Below are positions 1 through 55,695 of a stretch of DNA of 55,695 bases, in pieces (position 1 is the first letter of the stretch; every line of letters starts with the position of its first letter). This DNA is from Planctomycetaceae bacterium (lineage in GTDB: Bacteria > Planctomycetota > Phycisphaerae > SM23-33): contig JBDKTA010000070.1 in assembly GCA_039680605.1 (NCBI GenBank), positions 1 to 55,695 on the forward strand. Direction: 5' to 3'. A model generated the notes under the pieces. The model was not told the DNA's origin and ran no database searches. It saw nothing but the letters and a program-made list of their open reading frames with translations. Both the position numbers and the translations under genes were made by a program.

Positions 1-127
1 AACAAAAAGCGCCGCCGTGCCAACGCACGACAGCGCCTATGCGGTTTGTCAAGCCCCCTTGTGCCTTTTGCACACATAATTCCCATGCCTAGAGTATAGC
101 ATACCGCCGGCCCGCTGTCAATAGGTT
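1..127. repeat. Left copy of the 127-bp terminal direct repeat (circular contig overlap)
   Basis: Bases 1-127 are identical to 55569-55695. A perfect repeat of exactly 127 bp at contig ends is what a de Bruijn assembler with k=127 leaves when it closes a circle, so the unique genome is 55,568 bp. It contains the leftward late promoter and the leader terminator, listed separately. Confidence 0.93.
4..36 (-). terminator. Intrinsic terminator in the leader of the late operon
   Basis: Read on the minus strand, positions 36-25 and 20-9 form a 12-bp stem (two G-T wobbles) with loop GTTG, followed at once by TTTTT (8-4). It lies between the leftward promoter at 93-121 and the first late gene (start 55542 across the circle joint), about 60-80 bases into the transcript. 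Placed there it would stop late transcription unless bypassed, so it is an attenuator or antitermination target. The same hairpin appears at 55577-55604 in the right repeat copy. Confidence 0.75.
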
Positions 128-3750: not shown

Positions 3751-4191
3751 GTGGTTATGGGTGCTAAAACGCTCACGCTTGACGAGCGGGCGCGGCGACG
3801 CGCCAAGCGCAAAAGCAATCAGGTCAAGAGCAAGTATCCTCTCTTGGCGCAGGCCGGCGTAGTAGAGGACTGGATGACTACCACCGACGAAGCCAGAGAA
3901 CAGATCGAGCGGTTTGACCAAGCGGCAGCGGAATGGGCCGCGCAACGTGCCAAGAATAGGGAGGATGCCTTACAGTTGGCGGCGGAGCTTCGTGCCCAGG
4001 TGGCACAACGGGTGGACGCTGACACGCTGGCCCTATACGACGAACATCTAGCCAGGGTCTACCCGCCAGATTACGAGGTTGGATTCTGGCAGAGAGTACT
4101 AGATGGCAAGTTTGACATTCACGACTGGTTAGCTTGCATAGAGAACATCCGGGCATTGGGCAAATCTCATCAAGGGAGCGAATGGAAATGA
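3751..4191 (+). CDS. Hypothetical protein, basic and helical
   Basis: The 146-residue product begins with a basic segment (DERARRRAKRKSNQVKSK) and continues as acidic amphipathic helix, then a short globular end (YPPDYEVGFWQRVLDG). GTG 3751 is preferred because GAGG (3741-3744) lies six bases ahead; ATG 3757 is the alternative. It overlaps the ASCH gene by 10 bases. No family recognised. Confidence 0.55.
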   Translation: MVMGAKTLTLDERARRRAKRKSNQVKSKYPLLAQAGVVEDWMTTTDEAREQIERFDQAAAEWAAQRAKNREDALQLAAELRAQVAQRVDADTLALYDEHLARVYPPDYEVGFWQRVLDGKFDIHDWLACIENIRALGKSHQGSEWK

Positions 4192-4610
4192 AAGCTCTGA
4201 CACTCTGGCAGCCGTGGGCGTCAATGGTCGCCCTGGGCTACAAGACAATCGAAACGCGGTCGTGGGCCACAGATCATCGTGGGCCACTGGCAATCCACGC
4301 GGCCAAGGTTATGCCACATGAGGCGGAGTTGGCCTGTTATGAGAACGAGACAATCTACAACATCCTACAGCGCAACGGGCTGACGGTCTGCAACCTGCCA
4401 CGCGGCTTTGTCATCGCTATCGTAAGGCTGCACACCATCCAGAAAACGGAGGACGCCTTGGCGCTAGGGTTGGTCAACGACGTTAATCTGGCGCTTGGCG
4501 ACTTTGCGCCCGGTCGCTATGCCTGGACGCTGAACAATATAACGGCAGTAGAGCCGGTGCGGTCCATCGGCGGTCAGCGAATATGGAACTTTGTTGAGCC
4601 TGGCGATTAG
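4182..4610 (+). CDS. ASCH-domain protein
   Basis: The 142-residue protein opens with KALTLWQPWASMVALGYKTIETRSW and then GPLAIHAAK, the signature of the ASCH fold (a PUA-like barrel that binds RNA or modified nucleosides). Family members include amidohydrolases acting on N4-acetylcytidine and putative RNA-binding regulators. Two in-frame ATGs (4182, 4188) are possible; GGGAG at 4173-4177 fits the first. It is the last gene before the HNH element. Confidence 0.8.
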   Translation: MEMKALTLWQPWASMVALGYKTIETRSWATDHRGPLAIHAAKVMPHEAELACYENETIYNILQRNGLTVCNLPRGFVIAIVRLHTIQKTEDALALGLVNDVNLALGDFAPGRYAWTLNNITAVEPVRSIGGQRIWNFVEPGD

Positions 4611-4669
4611 CACTCATAATCATCATTAACCAGGCGAGAGAGATGACCACAACACAGCCGATCCGATAT

Positions 4670-4698
4670 TTGACAACGTGCGCGAGGTATGCTAGAAT
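4670..4698 (+). promoter_or_regulatory. Own promoter of HNH gene 1
   Basis: TTGACA (4670-4675), a 17-base spacer and TAGAAT (4693-4698). The core GATATTTGACAACG (4665-4678) is identical over 14 bases to that of the HNH promoter at 39588 and shares GATATTTGAC with the one at 16817-16845. A transcript would start near 4705, at the first base of the leader stem. Confidence 0.82.
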
Positions 4699-4703
4699 GT
4701 ACC

Positions 4704-4809
4704 TGTCAGGGGCGAGCGGTTGTTTCTTTTCCAACAGAATACAATGGGCATCAGCCCCGTACCGAATGGCCGCCGCTCCTGACAAGCGAAGGTTTCTCGG
4801 TGCGGGGCT
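4704..4809 (+). ncRNA. Pseudoknotted 5' leader RNA of HNH gene 1
   Basis: Arm A (4704-4719) pairs with A' (4770-4784) over 15 bp, with one wobble and one bulged A. Arm B (4753-4763) pairs with B' (4799-4809) over 11 bp with one wobble. The order A-B-A'-B' is an H-type pseudoknot. It starts at the predicted transcription start and ends 10 bases before the GGAGGG ribosome site. The HNH2 leader (16657-16810) has the same topology. A control of HNH translation or a catalytic or mobility RNA are the options. Confidence 0.6.
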
Positions 4810-4831
4810 TGCTATTTCTGGAGGGTGGACG

Positions 4832-5095
4832 TTGGCGCACAAACAGACACGCAACGCAAAAAGTCAGGAGTTGGCACGCAAGCGAATTATAAAGGCGCGA
4901 GGCGAGAGCTGTGAAGATTGCGGCAGAGATGGCCCCATTGAACTACACCATAAGCAACGAGCAGTCGATGGTGGCACCTTTGCCGATGATAACCTTATTC
5001 TATTGTGCTCCTCTTGCCACTTGAAGGCGCATGGACAACAACGACATAGGCGATGGTACGACGACGATCCACGCCTAGCAAGGATGTTAGGCTAA
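4832..5095 (+). CDS. HNH homing endonuclease 1 (free-standing)
   Basis: The 87-residue protein is little more than an HNH nuclease: CEDCG, IELHHKQRAVDGG, NLILLCSSCHLKAH give the two Cys pairs that bind structural zinc plus the catalytic His-Asn-His set. TTG 4832 is preferred because GGAGGG (4820-4825) is six bases upstream and because transcription starts near 4705. The frame is open back to an ATG at 4643, but that stretch encodes the promoter and structured leader. It sits between the ASCH and replication genes with its own promoter, as a mobile endonuclease would. Confidence 0.8.
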   Translation: MAHKQTRNAKSQELARKRIIKARGESCEDCGRDGPIELHHKQRAVDGGTFADDNLILLCSSCHLKAHGQQRHRRWYDDDPRLARMLG

Positions 5096-5096
5096 C

Positions 5097-5852
5097 ATGA
5101 GAACCTGGATCAAACTTTACACCGAGATCCTACGAGACCCAAAGATGGGCAGGCTGACCGATCGGCAAGGATGGACATTCACCCGCTTGCTATTGCTTGC
5201 CGGGACCGTTGATGGTGGCACACTTGGCAGCCTTGAAGATATTGCTTGGAGCCTCCGCATACAGCCCGTCGATCTTTCCGACGATCTCGCCGTTTTGTCA
5301 GAGTTGGGCATGGTGGAACAAAGCCAAATCGGAGATTGGACCGTTGTGAACTTTGAGAAACGACAAGCCCGGCCACCCAGCGCAGAGCCCGAAGCTGTTA
5401 CCGAGCGAGTGAAACGGCACCGGGAGAACATGAAACGAGAATGTAACGAGGATGTAACGACCCTGCAACGAGGCGTAACGCCCTCAGATCCAGAAGCAGA
5501 TCAGATCCAGAGCAGAAGCAGACAAGATACAGAGGCAGAAGCAGACACAGATCAAGCGCCGACCAAAAGCCAGAATCTGCCTGCTGATGCTGCCCTTCGG
5601 GCATTGCTTGCCTTGCCTGACATGGATGAGGCCGTCGCCCAAGAGCTGCTAGAACAGCACGAGCCCGGGTACTGCCTGGCCTGGGCGCAATATGCCGCGA
5701 GCCAGGGCAAGCTGGAAAACCCGGCCGGGTACTGCGTCAAGGGCATCCGATCCAAGCGTGAGCCGCCGGCGCCCCGCCAGAAATCGCCGCCGAAAAACAA
5801 ATGGCTGGCACAGATCACGACCGGCCAGTATGCCGACATAATCAGGCATTGA
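5097..5852 (+). CDS. Replisome-organizer-like protein (DnaD-type N-terminal domain)
   Basis: The 251-residue protein starts with RTWIKLYTEILRDPKMGRLTDRQGWTFTRLL, then a winged-helix segment (LGSLEDIAWSLRI), as in phage replisome organizers that bind the origin and recruit helicase loaders. The middle (about 100-160) is charged and repetitive, and the C-terminal region has an NPAGYCVKGIR motif seen in primosomal proteins. No helicase or polymerase is encoded nearby, so host enzymes are presumably recruited. Confidence 0.7.
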   Translation: MRTWIKLYTEILRDPKMGRLTDRQGWTFTRLLLLAGTVDGGTLGSLEDIAWSLRIQPVDLSDDLAVLSELGMVEQSQIGDWTVVNFEKRQARPPSAEPEAVTERVKRHRENMKRECNEDVTTLQRGVTPSDPEADQIQSRSRQDTEAEADTDQAPTKSQNLPADAALRALLALPDMDEAVAQELLEQHEPGYCLAWAQYAASQGKLENPAGYCVKGIRSKREPPAPRQKSPPKNKWLAQITTGQYADIIRH

Positions 5853-13298: not shown

Positions 13299-13344
13299 AT
13301 TGGTCCGTTTACCTATTGACAAATCATACATTGTATGCTATTAT
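13299..13344 (+). promoter_or_regulatory. Promoter of the 13.4-14.4 kb cassette, with ATTGG box
   Basis: TTGACA (13316-13321), 17-base spacer, TATTAT (13339-13344). ATTGG (13299-13303) lies 12 bases upstream of the -35, as in the two promoters near position 100-250; ACCTATTGACA is shared with the late promoter. The same regulator probably controls all three. Confidence 0.85.
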
Positions 13345-16115: not shown

Positions 16116-16651
16116 GCCCTGCGGTTGATTATGCGATTTATATGCCCGGTACTAACTCCGAACATGGCTGATAGTGCAGCCTGGACTATCCCTTTTGCAG
16201 ACAATTCTCTAATCTCTCTCACTTTACGTTCTGTCAATTTTGCTTCGGCATGATCCTCCCCGCATATAGGGCGTGAGTGCACTCTTCTAACTCCCAGGAC
16301 CCTAGAAGAATGTATCAGATTTTCTGACCGAGTGACATATTCAAGATTTTCAATCTGGTTGTCGCGTTTATTTCCATTCTTATGGTTAACCTCTTTTCCC
16401 GCCGGGCAAGGTCCAACAAACACAGACAGCACAAGGCGGTGAACAAGAAATACGGTCTGGTCCCCGGCCATGTATAGATGGACTTGAAGATAGCCGTCTC
16501 TCGTATTACCATAACGCAAAATCTGGCCCTTGTGTTTCCTTGTTTTTCCACCGTGTTCGATAACTGTGAAATCTACACTTCTCACCCGGCCCGCATTAGA
16601 AACCTGATAGTGGTCGCCAAATCCCGGTATGCTTTTCCATATTTCGTCCAT
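16100..16651 (-). CDS. NUMOD4-HNH homing endonuclease 2
   Basis: 183 residues: an N-terminal NUMOD4 DNA-contact motif (DEIWKSIPGFGDHYQVSNAGRVRS), an HNH core (LVHRLVLSVFV, KEVNHKNGNKRDNQIENLEYVTRSEN) and a C-terminal helix-turn-helix (IVQAALSAMFGVSTGHINRIINR). This is the layout of free-standing phage homing endonucleases. ATG 16651 is chosen because GGAGGG (16666-16661) precedes it and the protein family starts here. The frame is open to 16852 through the leader. It has its own promoter and sits between two copies of the lysozyme C-terminus. Confidence 0.88.
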   Translation of the reverse strand: MDEIWKSIPGFGDHYQVSNAGRVRSVDFTVIEHGGKTRKHKGQILRYGNTRDGYLQVHLYMAGDQTVFLVHRLVLSVFVGPCPAGKEVNHKNGNKRDNQIENLEYVTRSENLIHSSRVLGVRRVHSRPICGEDHAEAKLTERKVREIRELSAKGIVQAALSAMFGVSTGHINRIINRRAWKHI

Positions 16652-16656
16652 AGCAA

Positions 16657-16810
16657 AGCGCCCTCCACAAGATTTGCCACCGTTGCTTGGACGAATGGCG
16701 GGACGTTTGTCCTCTTGCGAAGGGCGCTCTGCCCACAACTGATATTCAGTTATGAATGATCTCGATGGCTCTTTAGATGCAAAGCGCCCCGTTAATCCAT
16801 TCGTCCAAGC
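16657..16810 (-). ncRNA. Pseudoknotted 5' leader RNA of HNH gene 2
   Basis: In the leftward transcript arm A (16810-16797) pairs perfectly with A' (16698-16685), 14 bp. Arm B (AGCGCCCT, 16728-16721) pairs with B' (AGGGCGCT, 16664-16657), which overlaps the GGAGGG ribosome site. The order A-B-A'-B' is a pseudoknot, as in the HNH1 leader. B can instead pair with GGGGCGCT (16788-16781), giving a possible on/off switch for translation. The A arm starts at the predicted transcription start. Confidence 0.6.
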
Positions 16811-30687: not shown

Positions 30688-30722
30688 ATTGTACCTTGTC
30701 TAGCGGTTGCCCCTTTGCCGTT
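30688..30722 (-). promoter_or_regulatory. Late repeat-type promoter, copy 1
   Basis: Minus-strand AACGGCAAAGGGGCAACCGC (30722-30703), 9 bases, then TACAAT (30693-30688). The 20-mer is identical in three places (also 47218-47252 and 54662-54696), with the same 9-base spacing to a TATAAT-like box. No normal -35 is present. It lies between the sulfotransferase and glycosyltransferase genes. Confidence 0.7.
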
Positions 30723-39587: not shown

Positions 39588-39616
39588 TTGACAACGCGCC
39601 AATCCTATGATAGCAT
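39588..39616 (+). promoter_or_regulatory. Own promoter of HNH gene 4
   Basis: TTGACA (39588-39593), 17-base spacer, TAGCAT (39611-39616). The GATATTTGACAACG core (39583-39596) is identical to that of HNH1. It lies on the strand opposite to the late operon. Confidence 0.8.
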
Positions 39617-39648
39617 GTAACCCTACCAACAACTGGAGGCGCGTAACG

Positions 39649-40203
39649 ATGGAAGATGTTAGGGTATGCAAAAATCCAGATTGCCAATCTGGCGGAAAGC
39701 CGCAGCCGTTGTCTGCATTTCGCAAGAGCGGTAACAAGTATCGTGGGAAGTGTAAGGCGTGCGAGACAGAATATCAGCGCCAATACCGCACAACGGATGC
39801 GGGAAAGAAGGTATATACCGGCTGGAACAATAGCGATAAGGGCAAGGCGTCTATTCGCCGCTTCGACAAGAGCGAAAAGCGCCGCGATTCCCGCTTGCGC
39901 TATCGTACCGAATACCCAGATCGTTGGAAAGAGCAGTATCATCGTAACAATACCAGCGAACGGGCAAGAAAATACAGCAAGGAACGTCAAGCTAAAAAGG
40001 AATATCAGATCATAGTGGCCGCATCTGCCATAGTTGATGCAGCTATCCTGCGGGGCGAAATACCGACGCCAAAAAACTTGGCGTGCCTTGATTGTGGCAA
40101 GCGGGCGCGAGAATATCATCATCATAATGGCTACGATGATGCCCACGTGCTTGACGTTATTCCGCTCTGCCGTTCGTGCCATGCCCGCCGTCATGTTCGA
40201 TAG
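39649..40203 (+). CDS. HNH homing endonuclease 4
   Basis: 184 residues: an N-terminal Cys cluster (CKNPDC, CKACETEYQR), a basic middle, and a C-terminal HNH core (CLDCGKRAREYHHHNGYDDAHVLDVIPLCRSCHARRH). GGAGG (39635-39639) precedes ATG 39649. It is on the plus strand inside the minus-strand operon and overlaps the end of the glycosyltransferase at 40191 by 13 bases. The leader is short, unlike HNH1 and HNH2. Confidence 0.85.
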   Translation: MEDVRVCKNPDCQSGGKPQPLSAFRKSGNKYRGKCKACETEYQRQYRTTDAGKKVYTGWNNSDKGKASIRRFDKSEKRRDSRLRYRTEYPDRWKEQYHRNNTSERARKYSKERQAKKEYQIIVAASAIVDAAILRGEIPTPKNLACLDCGKRAREYHHHNGYDDAHVLDVIPLCRSCHARRHVR

Positions 40204-47217: not shown

Positions 47218-47252
47218 ATTATACTGTGCCGGGCGGTTGCCCCTTTGCCGTT
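47218..47252 (-). promoter_or_regulatory. Late repeat-type promoter, copy 2
   Basis: Minus strand: AACGGCAAAGGGGCAACCGC (47252-47233), 9 bases, TATAAT (47223-47218). The same 20-mer stands at 30703 and 54677. It encodes TAKGQPPGTV, the C-terminus of the small gene at 47219, whose stop lies in the TATAAT. It drives protease and capsid genes. Confidence 0.78.
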
Positions 47253-54661: not shown

Positions 54662-54696
54662 ATTATGGCACGTTGGGCGGTTGCCCCTTTGCCGTT
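54662..54696 (-). promoter_or_regulatory. Late repeat-type promoter, copy 3
   Basis: Minus strand: AACGGCAAAGGGGCAACCGC (54696-54677), 9 bases, CATAAT (54667-54662). Identical 20-mer and spacing to the copies at 30688 and 47218. It precedes the holin-like genes and terminase module. The element also encodes the last residues of the gene at 54663. Confidence 0.72.
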
Positions 54697-55568: not shown

Positions 55569-55695
55569 AACAAAAAGCGCCGCCGTGCCAACGCACGACA
55601 GCGCCTATGCGGTTTGTCAAGCCCCCTTGTGCCTTTTGCACACATAATTCCCATGCCTAGAGTATAGCATACCGCCGGCCCGCTGTCAATAGGTT
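55569..55695. repeat. Right copy of the 127-bp terminal direct repeat
   Basis: Identical to 1-127. It contains the late promoter core (55661-55689) and the leader terminator (55572-55604) in genuine position relative to the first late gene at 55542. Confidence 0.93.

Follow-up and report, generated by a model that had tools for sequence, protein, structure and literature searches.

What does the 128-nt leader that separates the HNH endonuclease gene HNH1 from its near-consensus promoter do for the phage that carries it? The window, meaning the whole 55,695-nucleotide stretch of DNA analysed, is a closed, phage-like contig of 55.6 kb (positions 1-127 recur at 55569-55695) that was binned with a 5.2-Mb bacterial genome. 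Early genes occupy the plus strand up to about 15 kb, and the minus strand carries the genes for head, portal, TerL and tail; a scan for tRNA and tmRNA genes found none. HNH1 is flanked by an ASCH-domain-like gene (4179-4610) on one side and on the other by a gene for a DnaD-like replication initiator (5097-5852). A second HNH gene, HNH2, occupies 39588-40203 on the plus strand together with its own promoter, among the minus-strand structural genes, and is a moron-like insertion. The GC content of HNH1 and HNH2 (52% and 51%, versus 60% for the phage) is what would be expected of recent arrivals. The features discussed below are collected in Table 1.

Table 1. Promoter, RNA elements and coding sequence at the HNH1 locus.
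Feature	Position	Strand	Basis or remark
Sigma70-type promoter, TTGACA-N17-TAGAAT, extended -10 TG	4670..4698	+	sequence
Possible anti-S1 hairpin	4669..4710	+	readthrough transcripts only; -35-region UUUGACA with S1 UGUCAGG
S1 5' arm	4704..4719	+	begins at predicted transcription start
Predicted Shine-Dalgarno partner	4730..4739	+	4735-4739 with 4816-4820, 4730-4732 with 4823-4825
Hairpin 2, a nested alternative (S2 with internal 4-bp helices and 2x2 internal loops)	4747..4813	+	folding; excludes S1
S2 5' arm	4753..4765	+	13 bp including one G-U; inside S1 loop
S1 3' arm	4770..4784	+	15 bp with 4704-4719, A4715 bulged, one G-U
S2 3' arm	4797..4809	+	crosses S1 if both stems form
HNH1 Shine-Dalgarno GGAGGG	4820..4825	+	sequence
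HNH1, 87-aa single-domain HNH endonuclease, TTG start	4832..5095	+	Pfam, family profiles

The promoter combines a perfect -35 element (TTGACA, 4670-4675), a 17-nt spacer and a -10 element matching at five of six positions (TAGAAT, 4693-4698). With the extended -10, these near-consensus elements make a strong promoter, and they bear out an earlier proposal that its predicted start lies at the base of a long stem: its +7 position falls at about 4704-4705, and the predicted start, which we infer to be 4704, is the first base of stem S1. The preliminary description called this promoter private, which holds for its position but not for its kind, since the phage has five promoters of the TTGACA-17 type, this one included. 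Four of the five contain a TATG(C/A)TA core (besides that of HNH1, those at 121 to 93 on the minus strand, at 13316 on the plus strand and at 39588 on the plus strand before HNH2), and the promoter at 221 on the plus strand lacks it. A search with the exact promoter pattern returned no matches. Two further arrangements are found on the minus strand. Between 7 and 121, the same-family promoter (121 to 93) is followed about 50 nt on by a strong intrinsic terminator (38 to 7), which could represent either a small RNA of about 85 nt or a promoter-terminator leader ahead of the late operon, comparable to lambda pR'-tR'. Three identical AACGGCAAAGGGGCAACCG blocks (30688-30722, 47218-47252 and 54662-54696) are each followed by a -10-like TACAAT, TATAAT or CATAAT; they may be late promoters, each equipped with a site for an activator.

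HNH1 itself matches only the Pfam family PF01844 (E 7.6e-10). In the product that begins at TTG 4832, the match to family profiles sets in at residues 3-5, and the assignment of that start, upheld also by the Shine-Dalgarno sequence ahead of it, is therefore sound. An N-terminal extension from ATG 4643, from which the same frame stays open, was rejected on a codon score that is not gene-like. A search for the HNH protein that covered 35 genomes of the family, 392 of the phylum and viral contigs turned up only relatives of 34-50% identity. The preliminary description spoke, wrongly, of leaders at both HNH genes; HNH2 has the promoter in common with HNH1, and its leader is about 27 nt long, without S1/S2-type structure. 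The HNH genes of mycobacteriophages Bromden and Dulcita and of phiH overlap the upstream coding sequence and have no leader. Homologous HNH genes thus largely lack the leader, and a conserved mobile unit of HNH gene plus leader was rejected on these grounds and on the self-matches of the covariance models described below. A terminator-like hairpin lies directly before the HNH Shine-Dalgarno in the Ca. Heliusvirales phages L125, L138, L140, L149 and L150 and in L013 (terminator scores 28-42); none of the remaining HNH relatives surveyed has one. What these hairpins and the HNH1 leader have in common is layout, not sequence. Recurring with a U-tract in several gut phages (L125, L138, L140, L149 and L013), the hairpin may be an attenuator or a late-operon antitermination site. 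In L142 and L148, phages of Agathobacter and Dorea, two strong consecutive hairpins precede the HNH gene (z -5.8 and -5.0).

Within the HNH1 leader, all 15 pairs described earlier for S1 were verified one by one, with A4715 bulged. The second pairing also exists and crosses S1 in the H-type topology, although its length is 13 bp and not the 11 bp first given. A crossing pair as strong as S1 and S2 together arose in none of 6000 dinucleotide shuffles, and a single stem as strong in one of 6000. Across the window, one of 1854 tiles betters the crossing pair, the coding tile 16636-16755 outscores the leader, and S1 is among the two strongest single stems. The nested minimum free energy (MFE) of the leader is moderately unusual (z -3.27; in a second estimate z -2.95, a value that 15 of 870 tiles equal or exceed), and several coding tiles fold as strongly. 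S1 and S2 are probably not accidental, a conclusion that stops short of proof because they were chosen by a scan of the window and no homologues of the leader were found. Elsewhere, on the minus strand at 16636-16783, a 21-bp stem within a coding frame forms the window's most extreme tile (MFE z about -6.2).

Folding calculations predict that the leader can adopt alternative folds. As nested structures, hairpin 1 (4704-4784) has an energy of -37.7 kcal/mol, compared with -41.1 for the core of hairpin 2 (4747-4813), and in a chain grown from 4704 hairpin 1 is predicted to dominate at lengths 4784-4802 and hairpin 2 from 4808 on. Hairpin 2 would permit 4730-4739 to pair over the HNH1 Shine-Dalgarno, whose predicted unpaired probability is 0.66 with S1 forced and 0.39 unforced. 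For transcripts from the gene's own promoter, the mean unpaired probability is 0.33-0.41 (ends at 4850 or 4871) or 0.36-0.57 (end at 4900); the occluding helix is weak, its 5+3 bp being interrupted by a 2x2 loop, and the predicted occlusion varies with transcript length. The S1+S2 pseudoknot, with loops of 33, 4 and 12 nt, is estimated at about -48 kcal/mol, from computed stem stacks near -31 each and a general pseudoknot penalty, against -46.5 for the nested fold (4704-4815), a difference within error. By this estimate the pseudoknot and a bistable two-hairpin leader would cost about the same, and the calculation does not separate them. The H-type pseudoknot of the preliminary description is a possible outcome of the crossing pairings, but it is not favoured over two mutually exclusive hairpins. 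Within the HNH1 frame, GTCAGGAG at 4864-4872 is a second copy of S1 5'-arm sequence; being complementary to CTCCTGAC (4776-4783), it is a possible further competitor of S1.

The predicted folds also depend on where the message begins. In readthrough transcripts from upstream, the probability of S1 is at most 0.001, and seven upstream starts were modelled for the anti-S1 hairpin. Its probability is 0.43-0.95 when the transcript begins at 4500-4640, 0.69-0.78 when it begins at 4300-4400, and about 0 for the one start at 4660. In the two longest readthrough transcripts, the Shine-Dalgarno is predicted to pair elsewhere. Unlike the proximal transcripts of I-TevI, transcripts from 4704 keep both arms, and the predicted equilibrium fold is hairpin 2 for own and readthrough transcripts. 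These models suggest that the leader responds to the start point of the message.

We tentatively read the leader as a lineage-specific element that controls HNH1 expression in cis and works like the T4-type endonuclease RNA hairpins, a reading we consider plausible rather than probable. In such a mechanism, polymerase starting at 4704 would make S1 first, as a 5'-terminal stem that protects the message and leaves the Shine-Dalgarno fairly open. After synthesis of 4797-4825, S2 would form; it would either join S1 in an H-type pseudoknot or displace it as the RNA refolds into hairpin 2, upon which 4730-4739 could pair over the Shine-Dalgarno and lower HNH1 translation. In transcripts of the upstream operon, the S1 5' arm would instead pair with 4669-4675, favouring the closed hairpin-2 state. 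The net effect would be HNH1 produced mainly, and modestly, from its own promoter. We infer this folding order and the regulation built on it, as well as any protein or ligand that might shift the balance, and the leader may perhaps also control the replication-protein gene that starts just past HNH1. For cis control speak the strength of the crossing stems far beyond chance, their placement exactly from the near-consensus promoter to the HNH Shine-Dalgarno, the predicted folds, the phage endonuclease leaders described below and the strong hairpins ahead of the Shine-Dalgarno in close HNH relatives; against it stand the failure to find a homologue of the leader, the weakness of the Shine-Dalgarno helix, the coding tiles of similar folding strength and the fact that own transcripts are also predicted to reach hairpin 2. 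Among the three functions proposed earlier (regulation of endonuclease synthesis, a ribozyme, or a guide for mobility), regulation appears the most plausible; the cis position of the leader, right before the Shine-Dalgarno, is likewise supported.

Searches for the leader outside this locus found no counterpart. DNA similarity searches of phages, plasmids and 60 relatives gave short chance matches only, and two covariance models (R1 and R2), each derived from this one sequence and run over 298 class genomes and 42 loci, recovered nothing beyond the leader and its complement. The exact S2 pattern gave no matches; the exact S1 pattern occurs in six viral contigs, all of one structural-gene family, and was set aside as coincidence. 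Within the window, antisense targets of the leader did not rise above chance, and its pairing with a candidate small RNA (7-86, minus strand) was no better than in shuffles. For the surrounding genes, a search for relatives of the DnaD-like replication-protein neighbour found none, the two relatives found for the ASCH neighbour do not share synteny, and none of 106 TerL loci has the early region of the present phage.

A transcription attenuator is unlikely, though less so than the other alternatives: S2 or hairpin 2 would act as a terminator-like element and S1 as the antiterminator, their balance setting polymerase access to HNH1 and the replication genes. S2 is GC-rich, ends in GGGGCUU and is followed by UGCUAUUUCU, and the HNH relatives in Ca. 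Heliusvirales and L013 have clear terminator hairpins before their HNH Shine-Dalgarno. However, the U-tract here is poor, with terminator scores of -2.9 to +7.5 against 28-42 in those relatives and 64 for the phage terminator at 13238, and the 31-nt loop of S2 is above the usual length. A static 5' structure, in which S1 is a mere mRNA stabiliser or insulator, S2 an incidental hairpin and no switching occurs, is distinctly unlikely; it would fit a stem of S1's rank in the window that begins at the predicted +1, but S2 is strong too and no shuffle matched the two together. It is improbable that the stems pair by accident in a GC-rich sequence, or that they are palindromes acting in the DNA (as operator, origin or endonuclease site) and have no function as RNA. 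The moderately unusual MFE, the better-scoring coding tile and the selection of the leader by a whole-window scan allow for this, yet the shuffles of the crossing pair and the coincidence with the predicted transcription start argue against it. We judge equally improbable the more far-reaching idea that the leader is a phage regulatory RNA of a novel type. Such a switch, bistable or pseudoknotted and set during transcription, would report local-promoter versus upstream-operon origin and control both the HNH nuclease and the replication genes that follow, perhaps with the help of a protein or ligand. An RNA acting on RNA polymerase or in trans (an antitermination RNA of the put kind, or a small RNA cut out of the leader) is very improbable. 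Like HK022 putL (PMC9378689), the leader is a structured RNA that follows a promoter, here a strong one heading the replication genes, but put consists of two consecutive stem-loops that do not cross. The leader is moreover a single copy that matched no sequence or model, its antisense targets in the window are unconvincing, and its small-RNA pairing is no better than shuffles. The ribozyme and mobility-guide proposals find no support. For the first, no relevant Rfam match appears even at E 10 (Rfam 15, whose families include ribozymes, riboswitches and HEARO, gives none for the whole window at the gathering score, and for the leader at E up to 10 only a chance SNORD23 match inside HNH1); for the second, there is neither a homologue nor an IscB/TnpB-like partner, HNH1 being a bare HNH of 87 aa with no RuvC.

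Stand-alone phage nucleases can harm their own genome, and T4-like phages restrain them with RNA structures. If a promoter plus leader served this end in a phage unrelated to those, a different, switch-like RNA would be seen to answer the same need. The leader offers a compact test case of whether such an element can tell local from readthrough transcription.

Among known systems, HK022 putL is likewise a structured RNA, of about 70 nt, directly after an early phage promoter, and put RNAs act on polymerase (PMC9378689). Both it and the HNH1 leader adjoin a phage promoter, but put is formed of two tandem stem-loops over about 70 nt and the HNH1 leader of crossing stems. The known phage pseudoknot operator is the gene 32 leader (PMC3014915). 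There the gene's own product, a single-strand binding protein, binds the operator, and an A+U-rich tract follows it, which the HNH1 leader lacks. The HNH1 stems also look much longer than the gene 32 pseudoknot stems. The closest HNH relatives compared, in Ca. Heliusvirales (NatCom_21982, 3357, 11578 and 11393) and IMG/VR L013, resemble HNH1 in having a GC-rich hairpin ending in GGGGCUU or similar right before the Shine-Dalgarno, but their hairpins have short 4-nt loops, good U-tracts (terminator scores 28-39), no visible S1-like partner and no detectable sequence similarity to the HNH1 leader.

The nearest functional parallel lies with the T4-type endonuclease leaders. According to reviews, RNA structures cover the ribosome binding site in I-TevI, I-TevII, I-TevIII, segB and Aeh1 mobE, and the transcripts from a proximal promoter lack the inhibitory structure (PMC2988022, PMC3014915). 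As in these systems, of which Aeh1 mobE encodes an HNH enzyme, HNH1 has a close upstream promoter within a larger same-strand operon, and its leader RNA is predicted to pair with the Shine-Dalgarno. It differs in its two long crossing or competing stems and its weak Shine-Dalgarno helix, and homology to the T4-type leaders is not shown. The T4-type proximal promoters lie within the structure, so that their transcripts escape it, whereas the predicted HNH1 start at 4704 precedes both 4730-4739 and both stems. Because this escape is absent from the predicted transcripts, we do not file the HNH1 leader as a member of the T4-type group, although it is with these leaders that its proposed mode of working agrees most closely.
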